Shown here: piece by piece, positions 16,825 to 30,035 of the stretch
Numbering within the stretch: position 1 is the first letter of the stretch
Layout: the number at the start of each line of letters is the position of its first letter
From: a virus
IMG/VR virus record: IMGVR_UViG_3300025466_000134
Coordinates: 1 to 30,035 of that record
Direction: 5' to 3' (one strand)
DNA length: 30,035 nt
Notes under the pieces: generated by a model
Told to the model about the DNA's origin: nothing
Database searches by the model: none
What the model saw: the letters and a program-made list of their open reading frames with translations, nothing else
Translations under genes and position numbers: made by a program

Positions 16825-17217
16825 TTATGCCCATTTACAATATTCTGGGCGCATTTCTAGAATTACCAAATCCCCATCGTCATGTGCATCAGGGATAAAA
16901 GCAACATCTTTGAAACCAAGGTGTCGGTCTAGTCTTAGGGCTTTTTTGTTACTCCCTGCAACTGTGCCAATTATAACCTTTAATTTCAATGTGTTAAACG
17001 GATAATCAAAGACCTTTTTAAGAAAGTCTTTAGTTGCCCAATGCTCACCTTCTGACCCAACATGAATCATGCAAGATTTACCATAAAAACCGCAAAATAC
17101 CACTACTGCCCTAATTTCATCATTTAATACCTGACCGACATAATGTGCGTCAGGTGGAGTCGGAATCTTATGTTTAATAGCCCAGTCTTTAAGACTTTGC
17201 TGATTAATAAGAATCAA
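16825..17217 (-). CDS. GNAT-like acetyltransferase fold protein
   Basis: 130 residues with AVVVFCGFYGKSCMIHVGSE, VIIGTVAGSNKKALRLDRHL and GFKDVAFIPDAHDDGDLVIL. The N-KKALRLDRHLGFK block corresponds to motif A/B of GNAT folds (the alpha helix before the last strands). Members placed between tail and internal protein genes occur in many podovirus genomes, yet whether they acetylate anything is unknown. The usual Q/RxxGxG/A acetyl-CoA loop is degenerate (GTVAGSNKKA), so activity is uncertain. Confidence 0.65.
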   Translation of the reverse strand: MILINQQSLKDWAIKHKIPTPPDAHYVGQVLNDEIRAVVVFCGFYGKSCMIHVGSEGEHWATKDFLKKVFDYPFNTLKLKVIIGTVAGSNKKALRLDRHLGFKDVAFIPDAHDDGDLVILEMRPEYCKWA

Positions 17218-21208: not shown

Positions 21209-22189
21209 TTAACTACCTGTCAACAGACCTTGTAGGAATGAGTTAGAAGTAGTCAAGTTACCAGCCCAACCATACAATTTTACAATCGCATCTTGGTTAA
21301 TAGATTGACGCTCACCACCGATAGGTACAAAGTTACGCTCTTTGTGTGGGCGTAGGAAGAGGTAGTTGGTATTCAAGAAATACATATATGTAGCTGTTTC
21401 TTGTGAGCCATAACCACCACCTAATACCACATCAGCAGAAGTACCACCACCGTAGAATTTCAATGAAGCGAAACCAGCAGCGCCAGACTCTTCAGCAGCA
21501 ATACGCTGAATAGCTTGCAATGCGCCTACATAGTAGGAATACAGAGTGTTACCAGCAACAATCAAGTCAGCCTTGTCAGTACCACGAATCTGCTTGATAG
21601 CAGCAGTAGTCATAGCAGCAAGGATAGTTGTTGAAGAAGTAGCACCTGAAGTGATTTGATTCTGCCAGAAAGTCCAAGTAGCACGATTAATACCACCGTA
21701 TGTACCTGTGGTTGGTACAGCAGCAACAGCAGCGCCCAAACCATCTAAGTTTTTACCGCCATTACCTGTACCGTCACCGTATAAGTCACCGGAAATACGG
21801 TTAAGCAAACGAGCCTCAGAAACTTGCATACGACCATCTAACAAGTCGATGATTGCTTCTTTGCTTGAGTTTTGCAACATTTCTAAGCCAGACATTGTAA
21901 CTGCATCAGCGTACTGAGCAATTTTGTACTGGGCAGCAGAAATAGGGCTATCTGGAGCAATGTTTAATACTTCATAGCCACTATAGCTATTAGCATTGTT
22001 GGTTGTGGTGTCATCATACATAATCTCTTCCAAGATTACATTACCGCCTGAGAATGGGCGTACATTGCCCTTCTGATTCAAGCGCTGAAGAATAGCGTTG
22101 TTTTGTGTTAAGTTATCTGCCAATTCACCGCTACGACTTTGAATCGTGGTAGCGATAATATCGGTGATTGCTGAGTTAGCAAATGCCAT
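21209..22189 (-). CDS. Major capsid protein (HK97-fold, podovirus type)
   Basis: 326 residues. N-terminal MAFANSAITDIIATTIQSRS, then NVILEEIMYDD, the QYKIAQYADAVTMSGLEMLQ block, ISGDLYGDGTGNGGK with GLGAAV, and LRPHKERNFVPIGGERQSI near the end. This order is that of coat proteins of Bcep-type and environmental podovirus-like phages. Its place after the scaffold gene and before the decoration-like gene agrees. It should be the most abundant virion protein, and the hairpin and terminator downstream fit high separate expression. Confidence 0.88.
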   Translation of the reverse strand: MAFANSAITDIIATTIQSRSGELADNLTQNNAILQRLNQKGNVRPFSGGNVILEEIMYDDTTTNNANSYSGYEVLNIAPDSPISAAQYKIAQYADAVTMSGLEMLQNSSKEAIIDLLDGRMQVSEARLLNRISGDLYGDGTGNGGKNLDGLGAAVAAVPTTGTYGGINRATWTFWQNQITSGATSSTTILAAMTTAAIKQIRGTDKADLIVAGNTLYSYYVGALQAIQRIAAEESGAAGFASLKFYGGGTSADVVLGGGYGSQETATYMYFLNTNYLFLRPHKERNFVPIGGERQSINQDAIVKLYGWAGNLTTSNSFLQGLLTGS

Positions 22190-23282: not shown

Positions 23283-23678
23283 CTAGTATTTAAGTTTTTC
23301 GTAAGCCAATTCAGCAATTTGGCGTTTTCGTGCTTCCATAGACTTTTTGCTGAGTTCTGGTGGTTTTTGTTGCATAGGTACATCGTTGCCAATTTCAATA
23401 CAATGGTTGCGTTTTAGGTTTTCTCTATGCTTTGACCGACTATCAATCCAGCTACCATCAGCCATAGAAATATGCCCTTCAATGTCAGAAATCACCGTAG
23501 GGGCTTCTTTTGGGGTCATTTCTAACTTTTGTTTCCAGGCTTTGTCGGCTTCTTCGCCTTCAAAAGGCAAATTCCAATAAGCAAGGTATTTTTCCCTATC
23601 ATCGTACTGTTTAGGGTCATATTCTTCGTGGTCTACTTTACAATGGGCGCAGGTTACTTGGACTTTTACTAAAGCCAT
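23283..23678 (-). CDS. Zn-ribbon (FmdB-like) phage protein
   Basis: 131 residues. CAHCKVDHEEYDPKQ near the start is a CxxC unit, and the middle has SDIEGHISMADGSWIDSRSK followed by HRENLKRNHCIEIGNDV. The latter GSWI.SRSKHRE.LK...CIEIGND pattern is well known from a phage protein annotated FmdB-like or zinc ribbon, found between portal and scaffold genes. Function unknown. It starts where the glycosyltransferase gene ends. Confidence 0.72.
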   Translation of the reverse strand: MALVKVQVTCAHCKVDHEEYDPKQYDDREKYLAYWNLPFEGEEADKAWKQKLEMTPKEAPTVISDIEGHISMADGSWIDSRSKHRENLKRNHCIEIGNDVPMQQKPPELSKKSMEARKRQIAELAYEKLKY

Positions 23679-24589
23679 TACATTCTCCTTATTAAATCGG
23701 GTACTTGGTTATATTCTTCTTGACGCAATGCAATAACAGAGTCATACCATTTGGTATTTTTCCATCTCCAACAGATATATTCATCTTTAGGCAGTAATAC
23801 AATGGTTTTAACGCCTAATGCGCCTGCAAGGTGGGCTGTGCCTGTATCGACTGTCACAATGCCCTTCATAGCCTTCATGTGGCTTGCTGTGACTGCCCAA
23901 TCAGTTTTCCAACCATCATCAGGAAGTGGGTGAAAAAAACCATTGTGTTCCGGTGAAAGCGAATAGCAGTTATCGCCTACTAAGCTATACATTTGATGGT
24001 CAGGAATAGACTTAATATGAAATAAAATGTTGCGACTTGCGCCCCAATTTACCCCTATTTTAGGCTCAATATTTGAGGGTTTTGCATACATATAACCTTC
24101 AGAGCCTACTATTTTCTTAGCATTTAAAGGGAATAATGACTTAGCATAGGGTGTAACGCATGAAATATAGTAAGGAAGACTCATGTTGCCTATCCAATAG
24201 TCACATTCGACCACATCAGGACATTCAGGCTGATTCGTTAATACATCAATACATTCAAATTGCCCTAAAACCCTTAATAATGAGCCATGCGTTAGCAATA
24301 CGACCTTTTTAGCGCCCATAACCTTTAAAAATGGAAGAAACCTGGCAAACATAAAAATATCGCCAAAGCCTTGTTCCATCTGAATGACAATAGTCTTGTC
24401 TAAAAGGCTTTCCCCACGCCATACAGTAGGGCCTTGGGGTTTTTGCGTATAAGGAGTAACTTGATTAGCAAGGACTTCAGAGTGCCAACGATATTCAAAT
24501 AACCTAAAGCCAGCGTCATAGCGACCAGCGTGTAGGTGTTCGTAAGATTCTTTGTACTTAGCGTGTGGGTTTACAGGATTATAGCTAAT
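23678..24589 (-). CDS. Family-9-like glycosyltransferase with predicted ATT start
   Basis: Visible motifs: MEQGFGDIFMFARFLPFLKV, WGASRNILFHIKSIP and TVDTGTAHLAGALGVKT followed by WRWKNTKWYDSV, the pattern of TPR-associated glycosyltransferase family 9 (heptosyltransferase-like) phage proteins. The first ATG (24379) would begin inside the nucleotide-sugar fold, right at EQGFGD. The frame upstream is open for 70 codons and codes for conserved-looking sequence (SYNPVNPHAKYKESYEHLHA, FEYRWH, VWRGESLLDKTIVIQ), with no ATG, GTG, TTG or CTG. Homologues I recall begin M-SYNP-NPHA, so the ATT at 24589 is the expected start. GAAGAGG lies four to five bases before it. Overlaps the coiled-coil gene by 19 bases. 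A frameshift from that gene is an alternative. Confidence 0.75.
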   Translation of the reverse strand: MSYNPVNPHAKYKESYEHLHAGRYDAGFRLFEYRWHSEVLANQVTPYTQKPQGPTVWRGESLLDKTIVIQMEQGFGDIFMFARFLPFLKVMGAKKVVLLTHGSLLRVLGQFECIDVLTNQPECPDVVECDYWIGNMSLPYYISCVTPYAKSLFPLNAKKIVGSEGYMYAKPSNIEPKIGVNWGASRNILFHIKSIPDHQMYSLVGDNCYSLSPEHNGFFHPLPDDGWKTDWAVTASHMKAMKGIVTVDTGTAHLAGALGVKTIVLLPKDEYICWRWKNTKWYDSVIALRQEEYNQVPDLIRRM

Positions 24590-25047
24590 AGGGCCTCTTC
24601 ATCGTCTAATTCTGCTTGACGCTTGGCTTCTAAGATTGCTAACTCTTGTTCTAACCTAAGTTTTGCACTTCTTATTAATACAGCGTTTTGCAGGTCTTGT
24701 TGTTGTTGCTCAAGATTAGCGATGTATCGGTCAATGTTTGCTAGGTTTGACGGTATATCAACGCTAACTTCTTGATTGGATTGTATATTACTTTGTTGTG
24801 TCTTTGCAACAGGTTTAGGGTTAACTAAATCTGTAATAGTTTGTTTTCTTGCTTTTTGGTCAGCTTTTAATGCTGCAATGCGTTTAGCTTCTGCCAGGCG
24901 CAGTTTCTTTTGAATACCTTTAAGTCGTTTTAACTCTTCTCTTGTCCAAAGCGCATCATCCCCACCATTCTTTAAATTGGTAGGGGTAATAACAATCTGA
25001 AATGCGTCATTCTGAAACGCATTAACTTGGAAAGCAGTTTGAAACAT
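24571..25047 (-). CDS. Coiled-coil virion-region protein
   Basis: 158 residues. The start repeats AFQ units (MFQTAFQVNAFQNDAFQIVI), seen at the N-terminus of several phage head-region proteins. A basic segment (REELKRLKGIQKKLRLAEAK) and a long coiled coil (NIDRYIANLEQQQQDLQNAV) follow, ending in acidic DDEEALLAIIL. Stop TAA overlaps the glycosyltransferase 5' region. The start overlaps the preceding stop as TAATG. Function unknown. Confidence 0.65.
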   Translation of the reverse strand: MFQTAFQVNAFQNDAFQIVITPTNLKNGGDDALWTREELKRLKGIQKKLRLAEAKRIAALKADQKARKQTITDLVNPKPVAKTQQSNIQSNQEVSVDIPSNLANIDRYIANLEQQQQDLQNAVLIRSAKLRLEQELAILEAKRQAELDDEEALLAIIL

Positions 25048-25510: not shown

Positions 25511-28318
25511 TTAAAATGTTACTTCGGTTGTATCCACACGAGCTACAGTTCTAATTGTAGTACTAGCCTGTCCTGTAAAGGTAATAGCTAAACCACCATT
25601 AGTCGTATCTGCTGTGGCGGTTACTGTCCAAGTTGATGCTCCAGCGTCAGCCGCTACGATATTAGTCGTAACTGACCCCACTATAGCTGTTGTTCCTACT
25701 CCTGAACCACGCTTAATAGCACCTTCTAGTGTCCATGCCTTTGTGTTTCCACCACCTGTCACATTGGCAATAACGCTGACTTTAAAGTAATAAGCAGAGT
25801 TATTAGGTAGTATTACTTGGTTTGTTGTTCCTGCGGCTGCGCCATCAGAGGTGAGAATTGTGGCTGTTGCGTCTGTGGTTTGTTTAGCAAGAACTAATAA
25901 TGAGGATTGAGAAACTCCCAAAACACCAATAGGCGTTGTGCAAGGAGAAGAAGATATTATTCCACTTATGCCTCTTGTCGTAGCATTTAAACCAATAGCT
26001 GTTGAGTAAGAACCATTTGATGTATTTCCAATCCCAATTAATGCTGCGCCTGTACCACTAGCTGTGTTGCCCCAACCACCAGCAACAAATGAACCCAAAC
26101 CGCTTGCAGTATTTCCTTGACCAGCACCATTAAATGTACCACCACCAGCAATAGTTGAGCCTATTCCTGATGCCACATTTTTTTGACCTCCACCTACCGC
26201 ACTCCAATCACCACTAGCCACATTCCTATTAGCAGCAGTACCAGCATCACCACCACCACCGATAAATGAATAACTACCAGTAGCTTGGTTGTTTCCTCCT
26301 CCTACTACTACTCCATGAGGAGTGTAGAAAGATAGGGTAGGTGTTCCTGTAGCGTTAGCGTTTTGAGACAGTGTTAAGGAAGTGCCAGAGATAGCGGCTA
26401 CATAAGTTCCGCCAACAATACCTGTGCCAGTAATTAATTGACCGACTTTAATTGCGGCATTTGATGCTGCCAATGTTACGGCAGTAGAACCGCTTGTAAC
26501 ACCATTGGTTGCGGCTGCTTGGGTTGTTACAGCACTTCCACTTGTTCCAGAATTAGCAAAACCGCCACCAATAAAATTGTAATATCCGTTAGCAGTATTA
26601 GACCAACCACCAACAATTGAAGAAAATGTCCCGCCAACAAGATTTGAATATCCTCCAGCAATAACTGAATCAGAACCAGAGCTTGATATGCTGTTTAATG
26701 CCCCTCCAGCAATAGTAGATTCTGAAGCGGCTACGGAATTTCCTCTGCCACCCGAAACAGTAGAATTTGTAGAACTAGATGTAATATTTTGTCCACCACC
26801 AATAGTTGAATAAGCACTAGAAGCTACTTGTGAGGCTGATGACCTTGTAGTCTGCCAATCAACAGCATTAGCACCCCTAGCATTACCACCTGTTGCTGTT
26901 GAATCAGTCTTTTGTGCTTGTAATGCACCTGTTCCTAATGGGGATAACACTAATGGGGTATTTGTACCACCAGTAGCCTTAATCATTGGGTAACTAGCAT
27001 CACCAGTAATGGTTACATAAGTAGTAGAAGCAGAAGCTAAAGTAGCTGTGCCAGTTGATTCTAAAGTAGTAAATTTACCCGTGTTAGGTGCTGTATTTCC
27101 TATTGTCGGTGGGCTAGAAAGGTCTAAAGTACCACCTAAAGTGACTGTTCCTGTAGTCGTTATTGGGCCACCAGTTAAAGTCAATCCATTGACTGTTCCT
27201 TTTGTAGCTACTGAAGTTACAGAACCTGAACCTTTGCTATTAAAGGTATTCCAGTCGGTGCTTGTAAGGTAGCCATTTGTGGTGGTATTAGCGGCCGCCA
27301 TACTGATTGCAGGGGTAGCACCACCGCTAGACACTACTGGTGCAGTACCAGTTACGCTAGTAACGACACCTGTAAGTCCTGAACCTGAGCCACTAAATGA
27401 AGTAGCAGATACAGAACCAGCAAAAGTAGCTGATTTATCTTGGTCTATTGTTAAAGCGGTAACTTGAGTAATCGTAGTATTTGGCGTAACTTTAACTACA
27501 GCCTTTGCACCCCTAGCAGTAGCACCCCATACCTCTGTTGTTACGCCTTCTAATGATACTTGTGGGTAGGCATCTGCTGAAGTCGTGCCATAACCTGCTA
27601 ATTCAAACTTACCTAGACTATCACCGCTAATAGGTGCTTGTGGTGCGGCAACAGTACCCCTAAACTTACTTACACGAATAGCCGAGCTATTAGCGTCACT
27701 AGAATAGCCACGCATAGCAATGCGAGAAGTTGAGTTGTTATCTCCGACTGCTCTAATTTTAATAGTCGGTACAGTATTTGTATTAACTCCAAGATTAGAA
27801 ACATTAACCAATGTCTTAGCGTTTAAATCGACTGCGCCTGTAGCACCTGTATAGGGTACTGCGCTTACATCTGCGGCAGTTAATACGACTGTGCCTGTAT
27901 ATCCGTTTACGCTTGTTACAGCGTCAGTATTGTCTATCTTCTGCCATACAGAGCCGTTAAATACAGCCCAGTCACCGATTTGCCAGTCAGTAATACCGTT
28001 TAAATTAGTTGTGCCTGCAACGCTTACAACATAGTAATAACCCTTAGTTCCAGTTGAGGATGTAAGTGTAGGGCTATTTGTGTTTGCATTCCAAGCACCT
28101 TGATAGTTTAAATCACCTAGTGGTGGAAGTTGAGAAAGTGGTACTTGCCCACCAGAGTCAAGTGTAGCTACTCCATTAGCAACACCAGCATCTAAAGAAG
28201 CGGCAGTACCAACGCCGACTAAAGTATGAGTAGCGTTCCAATCACTAGGGCGTACAACAGATGTGTCTGTTCCGTCAGGTATTGCCGAAACCTTACTATG
28301 GGTGACTGTAATAGTCAT
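25511..28318 (-). CDS. Large tail fibre with YadA-head-like repeats
   Basis: 935 residues. N-terminal MTITVTHSKVSAIPDGTDTS with VVRPSDWNATH is a common fibre anchor; VNGYTGTVVLTAADVSAVPY is a collar-type repeat; TSATSFSGSGSGLTG-like strands form the shaft. Residues ~504-780 contain IGGG/IAGG...N.A.G repeats of the YadA adhesin head (for example STIGGGQN, TIAGGALN, SVIAGGYSN). An extra ~78-residue domain (591-668) interrupts them. The final ~145 residues (LVLAKQTTDATATILTSDGA through TRTVARVDTTEVTF-like strands) form a likely receptor-binding jelly roll. It sits between portal and scaffold genes and overlaps the portal stop as TAATG. Probably binds host receptor. Confidence 0.82.
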   Translation of the reverse strand: MTITVTHSKVSAIPDGTDTSVVRPSDWNATHTLVGVGTAASLDAGVANGVATLDSGGQVPLSQLPPLGDLNYQGAWNANTNSPTLTSSTGTKGYYYVVSVAGTTNLNGITDWQIGDWAVFNGSVWQKIDNTDAVTSVNGYTGTVVLTAADVSAVPYTGATGAVDLNAKTLVNVSNLGVNTNTVPTIKIRAVGDNNSTSRIAMRGYSSDANSSAIRVSKFRGTVAAPQAPISGDSLGKFELAGYGTTSADAYPQVSLEGVTTEVWGATARGAKAVVKVTPNTTITQVTALTIDQDKSATFAGSVSATSFSGSGSGLTGVVTSVTGTAPVVSSGGATPAISMAAANTTTNGYLTSTDWNTFNSKGSGSVTSVATKGTVNGLTLTGGPITTTGTVTLGGTLDLSSPPTIGNTAPNTGKFTTLESTGTATLASASTTYVTITGDASYPMIKATGGTNTPLVLSPLGTGALQAQKTDSTATGGNARGANAVDWQTTRSSASQVASSAYSTIGGGQNITSSSTNSTVSGGRGNSVAASESTIAGGALNSISSSGSDSVIAGGYSNLVGGTFSSIVGGWSNTANGYYNFIGGGFANSGTSGSAVTTQAAATNGVTSGSTAVTLAASNAAIKVGQLITGTGIVGGTYVAAISGTSLTLSQNANATGTPTLSFYTPHGVVVGGGNNQATGSYSFIGGGGDAGTAANRNVASGDWSAVGGGQKNVASGIGSTIAGGGTFNGAGQGNTASGLGSFVAGGWGNTASGTGAALIGIGNTSNGSYSTAIGLNATTRGISGIISSSPCTTPIGVLGVSQSSLLVLAKQTTDATATILTSDGAAAGTTNQVILPNNSAYYFKVSVIANVTGGGNTKAWTLEGAIKRGSGVGTTAIVGSVTTNIVAADAGASTWTVTATADTTNGGLAITFTGQASTTIRTVARVDTTEVTF
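26315..26548 (-). other. Insert domain inside YadA-like head repeats
   Basis: Codes for residues ~591-668 of the fibre. The segment (TTQAAATNGVTSGSTAVTLA ... VGQLITGTGI ... SLTLSQNANATG) has no GG-N-A-G repeats, and the repeat series resumes directly after it with VVGGGNNQATG. It resembles small beta domains found in other phage virion proteins. Confidence 0.6.
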
Positions 28319-30035
28319 TAATGTACTCCTACAATTTTGCCGTTTTCGTCACGCAATACAGTTTTAGGTCTGTTGTGCTGTTGGTTGATTGTATCTACTA
28401 AAGCAGCGATAGCTTGTGCCATTTGGTTATTTCCTTGACCAATAGCGTTAGCAATAGGTTGCATAGGATGTTCTTGCGCTTTGACATATTCTTCTTCAGT
28501 CAAATAAGCCTGTGCGCCATCGTCATCTTGTGCGCCAATTCTAGCAACTTCAATTTTTGCGCCATTGTTGATGTGAGCAAGCAAGACCTGAGTGTTTCTC
28601 TCAGTCATCATCTTCATTTGGGCTACTTTAAGTTCCATATCCCTATCTGCTTGATTTCGTTGCTGTTCTAACTGGAATTTAAGCTGATTCTCTTGGGCTT
28701 GGTACTCTTGTTTAGCTTTTTCAAGCTGCATTTGACCTTGTAACTTAGCTTGTTCAACCTGGGCTTGCATCTGAATCTGTTGCATCTTCGATTGGTTGTC
28801 CATTTGCGCCTTCTGAATCTCAGGAGGAGGCGGTTTAGGTTGACCTTGTGATTGTTGTGCAGAAATACGCAATTTATCGGCTGTTTCGTCAATAATACCT
28901 TCTAATTGCTTACCGGCTTTAAAGGCTGTAACACCAAATTTCAGCATTTCAAGCGCCATAGGTGCTAACTCAGGGCTATTTTGTACCATTGGTACAGCTT
29001 GGGCCATAAATCCACCGACTGCTTGCAAGAATTGCATCCTATCTTGCTTTTCTTGCTGTTCATCTTGGTAAATCATCGAATCAGAAGTAACTTCAATGCG
29101 GAAATTCTTACTAGCTTCGTTTCTTAATAGTTCTATTGCTTGTGGAATCATCTGTTTATCTTGCTCAGACAATTGCATTGCACCACTAATCTTAACTAGC
29201 GTTTCATCAGTAAAGTGATTGCAGATAATCTGCGCTTTAATAGACAACAGAGATGTTGCGAAATCTACTACTGCGTGTTGCTGAGTCTTTAGACGACCAG
29301 CAGCGTTATTTGACTTGATAATCTGTGCGCCAAGCGTGTCATTAGGGTCTGATTGACCTCTTTGAATGTCAGAAATACCCATTAACTCATAGATTTGATT
29401 CTTAACTTGTTCCATTGCTTGATAACAAGCCATTAAAGCAGTCGAGAATGGGGCTAAGTCTACTAAGTCAATAGCACCTTTCATACCTTGCTTTTCAGCA
29501 AAAGCCATCCAGTTAGCTACTGGAATCATGGTGTTATTTTCGCCTTCAGAAAATAAGCGTTGTAGCTCACTTGCTGAAGCATCGTATACACCACGCACTT
29601 TAAGGGCGTTAATCAAGCCATCTATGCGGTCACATAGCGTGTCTAACTCTCTAGCTTGGTCTTGGTAGATAGTAAAGTCAGGAATAGGCTCTAGCGAGTC
29701 TGTAGTAAGAGTAGCGTAAAGTGGTTTAGGACAAGGCCAGAAGTTCTCTAATCCTAGTGGGTCATCTCTTTCGTCAACAATCTTGCCGAGTGACTTAGAA
29801 ATCCATAATACTTTGCCTGTTTCTTTATCCCAGACTTCATAGATAACGGCTTCATACACTCCGTCATCTGACTTGTAAGATTGTTTTAAATCGTCTGGCT
29901 TGGTATCTAATGGGATTTTATGACCCATTTCTTCGCCAAATCTTTCAACCAAAGCAGGGCGAGACATATAGACTCTGCGCCATACTGCGGTGACTTCTTC
30001 CCAAGTCCTAGCGATTGTGTGACCAAAATCCCGCC
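28318..30035 (-). CDS. Portal protein (5' end outside window)
   Basis: The frame is open to the window edge; upstream of the first internal ATG it reads RDFGHTIARTWEEVTAVWRR, typical of portal proteins, so the true start is beyond 30035. Visible features: SRPALVERFGEEMG, the clip/wing region (FWPCPKPLYATLTTDSLEPI, IYQDQARELDTLCDRIDGLI), IYELMGISDIQRGQSDPND with AQIIKSN, and a C-terminal Gln-rich coiled coil (MDNQSKMQQIQMQAQVEQAK) forming the long barrel-like extension. These match the podovirus portal family. It forms the DNA entry ring and assembly nucleus. Confidence 0.88.
   Translation of the reverse strand, partial: RDFGHTIARTWEEVTAVWRRVYMSRPALVERFGEEMGHKIPLDTKPDDLKQSYKSDDGVYEAVIYEVWDKETGKVLWISKSLGKIVDERDDPLGLENFWPCPKPLYATLTTDSLEPIPDFTIYQDQARELDTLCDRIDGLINALKVRGVYDASASELQRLFSEGENNTMIPVANWMAFAEKQGMKGAIDLVDLAPFSTALMACYQAMEQVKNQIYELMGISDIQRGQSDPNDTLGAQIIKSNNAAGRLKTQQHAVVDFATSLLSIKAQIICNHFTDETLVKISGAMQLSEQDKQMIPQAIELLRNEASKNFRIEVTSDSMIYQDEQQEKQDRMQFLQAVGGFMAQAVPMVQNSPELAPMALEMLKFGVTAFKAGKQLEGIIDETADKLRISAQQSQGQPKPPPPEIQKAQMDNQSKMQQIQMQAQVEQAKLQGQMQLEKAKQEYQAQENQLKFQLEQQRNQADRDMELKVAQMKMMTERNTQVLLAHINNGAKIEVARIGAQDDDGAQAYLTEEEYVKAQEHPMQPIANAIGQGNNQMAQAIAALVDTINQQHNRPKTVLRDENGKIVGVH

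Follow-up and report, generated by a model that had tools for sequence, protein, structure and literature searches.

Sequence comparison supports an ATT start codon for a phage glycosyltransferase gene that overlaps a coiled-coil gene

The glycosyltransferase frame and its N-terminal extension

Where does translation begin in a gene whose reading frame offers only an ATT near the N-terminus? The question is raised by a GT9-like glycosyltransferase (GT) gene in IMG/VR virus record IMGVR_UViG_3300025466_000134, of which positions 1 to 30,035 (30,035 nucleotides; hereafter the window) were analysed. The GT frame, on the minus strand at 23678-24589, is open over 303 codons followed by TAA, and the ATT at 24587-24589 is its only possible start near the N-terminus. 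The first in-frame ATG (24377-24379) is not the start and falls within the invariant QMEQGFGD, 70 codons inside the conserved protein; an earlier sequence-only reading, which had placed this ATG in an EQGFGD motif, was correct on this point. The same reading had described the 70 upstream codons as open, typical of the family N-terminus and free of NTG codons, and the frame itself agrees, with zero ATG, GTG, TTG or CTG between the ATT and the ATG at 24379. GT is preceded on the same strand by a coiled-coil gene (cc; 24571-25047), an ATG-initiated ORF of 158 amino acids with the C-terminus DDEEALLAIIL, and the two overlap by 19 nt (24571-24589), the first base of GT being the third of a cc codon. 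The ATT is embedded in the pentamer TATTA (24586-24590, minus strand; T at -1, ATT, A at +4). Four nucleotides before it lies a Shine-Dalgarno-like GAAGAGG (24600-24594), also noticed in the earlier reading, and an in-frame TGA (24599-24601, minus strand) closes the GT frame upstream.

The N-terminal extension has the properties of coding sequence. Over the 63 codons that follow the overlap, up to codon 70, the window and 73 relatives gave a pN of 0.177 against a pS of 0.60, a ratio that agrees with the coding character ascribed to this region beforehand, and stop codons were found in 0/74 sequences in the GT frame but in 74/74 in each of both other frames. By this comparison the extension is under purifying, protein-level selection and is coding, and the possibility that GT is a pseudogene was rejected on account of that selection. 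Every other ORF of at least 100 codons on the minus strand of the window, the strand that bears the genes, has an ATG, GTG or TTG within its first 28 codons; in GT the open frame reaches codon 73 before one appears. The identical ATT occurs in close relatives that come from many independent metagenomes, which rules out a sequencing error and led us to reject a private mutation, and the error concealing a true ATG at 24589 that the earlier reading had named as its refutation was not seen. An internal GTG or TTG start was likewise rejected, since such codons occur in some relatives at scattered positions, none of them family-wide, and 24/129 have none at all. Elsewhere in the window, the gene at 16825-17217 has a TTG, overlapping the preceding stop as TTGA, as its only NTG start near the N-terminus, and its first ATG lies far inside.

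The GT product probably resembles glycosyltransferase family 9 (TibC, WaaC, WaaF), as judged from a Pfam GT9 match and a tentative GT-B type fold match. The Pfam match (PF01075, Glyco_transf_9) passed narrowly, with 22.9 bits against a cut-off of 22, and covered residues 234-268 only. An AlphaFold model with a mean pLDDT of 71 gave TibC, 3tov and WaaC as best PDB matches, with E values of 7.5e-6 to 7e-4 but TM scores of 0.4-0.5 at that model confidence. GT differs from the family in being only about 10-14% identical to solved structures, and a sequence search of the PDB gave no match. Relatives in prokaryote genomes amounted to one distant match in a MAG (L263, 27% identity), a protein that combines TPR repeats with a GT9-like part, which suggests that the N-terminus of GT is a remnant TPR helix pair. 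PHROG matches around GT were to portal, tail and major head proteins, that is, phage structural genes. The major capsid and portal proteins (window 21209-22189 and 28318-29967) are closest to those of Myxococcus phage Mx8/Mx9, Stenotrophomonas BUCT555 and Bradyrhizobium ppBjS10J-1, with up to 51% and 39% identity.

Three types of junction and a natural start-codon swap

Five protein-based scans of viral contigs (IMG/VR) yielded 196 distinct cc-GT junctions, which fall into three types; L078, which looks like a chimeric contig end, was left out of the evidence. In type I (n=23) the genes are separate and GT starts with an ATG, 16-42 nt past the cc stop in the listed cases, and in type II (n=37) they share a 4-nt ATGA overlap, again with ATG as the GT start. 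Type III (n=136, window included) comprises the overlapping junctions, which lack an NTG start near the GT N-terminus and have TATTA in 136/136, against 7/37 in type II and 1/23 in type I. The ATT is the sole near-cognate codon common to all 136 distinct type III junctions, other near-cognate positions near the GT start being occupied in at most 32/136 each. Examination of the start-codon base in related genomes, a check suggested in the sequence-only reading, returned ATT throughout the overlapping junctions; the statement in that reading that homologues have an ATG before SYNP proved right for the other junction types and wrong for the direct homologues, which have ATT. Among the true type III cc-GT junctions returned by a DNA pattern scan that made no use of the GT sequence, all had ATT and none had ATG, ATC or ATA; the remaining matches of the scan were unrelated genes, one type II locus and loci without GT.

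GAGG is present in 133/136 type III junctions, 4 or 7 nt before the ATT, and in 8/37 of type II and 17/23 of type I, so that it is not specific to type III, being common in type I as well. At the cc codon pair that bears the Shine-Dalgarno sequence, GAAGAA was found in 0/136 type III junctions versus 27/60 in types I and II together. On the GT tree the junction types cluster strongly and three changes are needed in total, so that type III has nearly a single origin, from which there was one escape. Type III being essentially one clade, its 136 sequences are not independent origins. The N-termini of cc are highly variable (L149, L028, L095), some with repeated ITGTISATDGNDTANITG-like units, and the leucine-rich C-terminal tail is constant.

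In one locus, L065, a cc and spacer of type I are followed by a GT of type III, with an ATG exactly at the position of the ATT codon. The cc and spacer are closest to type I (91% amino acid identity to L273), with a DNA match that ends about 15-20 nt or less before GT begins, and the GT is closest to type III (83% identity to L044), with a DNA match that begins within about 10 nt after the start. The GT N-terminus, M-SSNLNPHQQYK, aligns with I-SSNTLNAHQQYK, and the cc tail is devoid of TATTA, having ATT CTG instead. On this comparison L065 is a natural swap of the start codon from ATT to ATG. The recombinant junction spans L065:1354-1400, and the spacer contains a short GTG frame (VTTYADNGWSDEF) that overlaps the GT ATG.

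Probable initiation at ATT and its possible retention through the overlap

We consider it highly probable that, taken as a whole, the following account is correct: GT is separately translated from the ATT at 24589, the ATT has been retained through the phase of the overlap, and type III arose by deletion. The initiator tRNA would read the ATT as formyl-methionine, and GT would be made as a protein of its own. The initiation site, inside the end of cc, would consist of the ATT with T at -1 and A at +4, preceded at 4-7 nt by a GAGG-type Shine-Dalgarno sequence, and would support ordinary Shine-Dalgarno-led initiation, with possible help from the ribosomes that translate cc and reach its stop codon just downstream. 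The T at -1 could pair with A37 of the initiator tRNA. Likewise, an A at +4 has been proposed to help initiation by pairing with U33 of that tRNA (PMC9841429), a proposal that the invariant A at +4 of type III would fit. Gene pairs with an ATGA overlap and termination-reinitiation coupling (PMC6728339) resemble the type II junction; type III shares their reading phase but differs in having ATT and in overlapping more deeply, which puts the cc stop downstream of the GT start.

The phase of the overlap offers a reason for the retention of ATT. An ATG, GTG, TTG or CTG in the GT frame within the overlap would impose a TGN codon (Cys, Trp or stop) on cc, whereas ATT would give TTA (Leu), compatible with the leucine-rich tail that cc appears to require. 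This tail, of the DDExxLLLLL type, is conserved in relatives and kept in all three junction types, so that an ATG in the overlap would be expected to damage it; we infer that ATT persists because any ATG breaks the leucine tail while ATT reads as Leu. As to origin, a deletion most probably took the spacer together with the old type I or II ATG and drew the GT frame into cc. The type I locus L196 suggests this: its cc tail, DDEEALLALIL, matches the common tail of type III exactly, and in alignment its ATG falls a few codons downstream of the ATT of type III. The constraint imposed by the overlapping gene may be a sufficient reason for ATT; since an ATG just past the cc stop is conceivable and yet absent from type III, it is perhaps not the whole reason.

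From known AUU starts, those of E. coli in the case of IF3, the yield of GT would be expected to be low relative to the cc protein and sensitive to host IF3, and low-level, IF3-sensitive synthesis is plausible. This leaves room for a tentative alternative, concerning the reason for retention and not another start site, the regulatory idea of the sequence-only reading, in which the main reason for keeping ATT would be a benefit from weak, IF3-tuned initiation, through less enzyme relative to cc or through a link to the translation state of the host. The fixation of ATT across a diverse clade in which an ATG past the cc stop was conceivable is in line with such tuning, as are the stoichiometry of sigR-rsrA in Streptomyces, set by a non-standard start and IF3 repression (PMC5472188), and the AUU and AUA starts of S. 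aureus that gave roughly 10% of the AUG signal (PMC13009471). The same gene pair, however, does well with ATG in relatives, including those with tight ATGA coupling, and the overlap constraint alone would account for the lack of an ATG inside the overlap, with no need of a regulatory benefit.

Known genes offer partial parallels. The E. coli gene for IF3, infC, has an autoregulatory AUU start; it is like GT in using AUU as a real start and in the IF3 sensitivity that we propose for GT, and differs in not being locked in the tail of another gene, GT being a phage enzyme with ATG-type relatives. Binns and Masters reportedly described in 2002 an AUU start for pcnB of E. coli. In S. aureus, cvfC1 has an AUU start (PMC13009471). 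Both are similar to GT in that a conserved or inefficient AUU start with a Shine-Dalgarno sequence serves an ordinary protein gene; they differ in being bacterial chromosomal genes, for which the accessible text describes no overlap constraint. The GTC start of Streptomyces sigR, through which IF3 sets the ratio of a gene pair (PMC5472188), is a likely analogue inasmuch as one of two co-expressed genes has a non-standard start, the strength of which would determine their ratio. There, GTC stands on the upstream gene and IF3 repression was shown by experiment, whereas in our case ATT stands on the downstream gene and the argument comes from sequence comparison.

Selection on the codon, other readings and significance

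On a GT tree built from 132 type III sequences, parsimony gave 0 changes at each of T-1, A1, T2, T3 and A+4, even though the cc frame leaves A1, T2 and A+4 largely unconstrained; other third-codon positions of cc in the same stretch and on the same tree had 3-27 changes. The cc leucine codon under the ATT is TTA in 130/130, while most other well-conserved Leu/Ile columns of the cc C-terminus underwent 14-45 codon changes. In five sequences (L099, L192, L231, L234 and L250) the ATT, its relation to GT preserved, lies one codon further along cc and the vacated cc codon has become CTA, which argues that selection tracks the GT frame. Taken together, these comparisons indicate that AUU is conserved as a codon beyond what protein or overlap constraint would impose. 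The T of the upstream in-frame TGA (window 24599-24601) is kept in 126/132, above expectation for the third base of an Asp codon, and this TGA may guard against read-in from upstream.

It is improbable that TATTA is kept for some other DNA or RNA reason, such as a promoter -10 element or cc codon choice, with GT starting elsewhere. Two further cc columns are indeed codon-conserved (3 and 4 changes), and two loci have cc and TATTA with no GT, namely L356, which is the same contig as L251, and L379, so that TATTA is not strictly tied to GT. Both are probably GT losses, which may be recent. In L379 the next gene, a relative of that at window 23283-23678, starts via ATGA at the cc stop. Against another role for TATTA, the stretch from the upstream stop to codon 70 has no alternative start-like codon shared family-wide, the pentamer, where it shifts, follows the GT frame and not cc, it is lost where GT has its own ATG, and its position lines up with the ATG of L065. 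A pure cc codon effect was accordingly rejected from the shifted cases and from types I and II, with the GT-less loci as a caveat.

Less probable still is a programmed -1 frameshift near the end of cc, the alternative raised in the sequence-only reading, which would produce a cc-GT fusion and dispense with a separate GT start. GT does lie in the -1 frame of cc, and around TATTA about 9-11 codons are open in both frames, but there is no X XXY YYZ heptamer and the frame-0 codons NTA TTA would re-pair poorly after a -1 slip. An alignment of 18 sequences gave 0 pairs of conserved RNA structure, and single type III sequences folded no better than shuffles (z-scores of -0.6 to +1.6). Furthermore, cc ends separately with the same tail in types I and II and in L065, where GT begins on its own at an ATG, and an in-frame TGA is retained just upstream of the ATT, all of which disfavours a fusion and points to two separate proteins. 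A mini-frame starting at the ATG of GATGA and followed by a +1 slip (CCC T, window clade) was rejected because the slip sequence is absent from other clades. Initiation of GT at the ATT, as first proposed from the window, is in our judgment strongly supported by its presence in 136/136 junctions, its 0 changes on the tree, the shifted cases and L065.

Non-canonical starts that have been characterised in bacteria are very few (PMC5472188), and a simulation study of gene overlaps considered the ATT start codon extremely rare (PMC3887535). A literature search, with subscription papers outside its reach, found no phage gene described as having a conserved ATT start, and the locking of a gene onto a near-cognate start by an overlap appears to be new. 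For annotation this means that, in these phages, gene callers limited to ATG, GTG and TTG would either put the start of GT in the wrong place or remove as many as 70 residues from it. That the ATT is a permanent, selected, IF3-discriminated attenuator of a virion- or host-modifying glycosyltransferase, whose output would track the initiation-factor state of the host and stay below that of the cc protein, seems to us rather doubtful. What the comparison offers is a rare non-canonical start conserved across a phage clade, with a natural ATG swap in L065: a lineage-wide near-cognate start in uncultured phages for which natural ATG versions of the same gene pair serve as controls, and what would be an example of an overlapping gene locking its neighbour into a near-cognate start.
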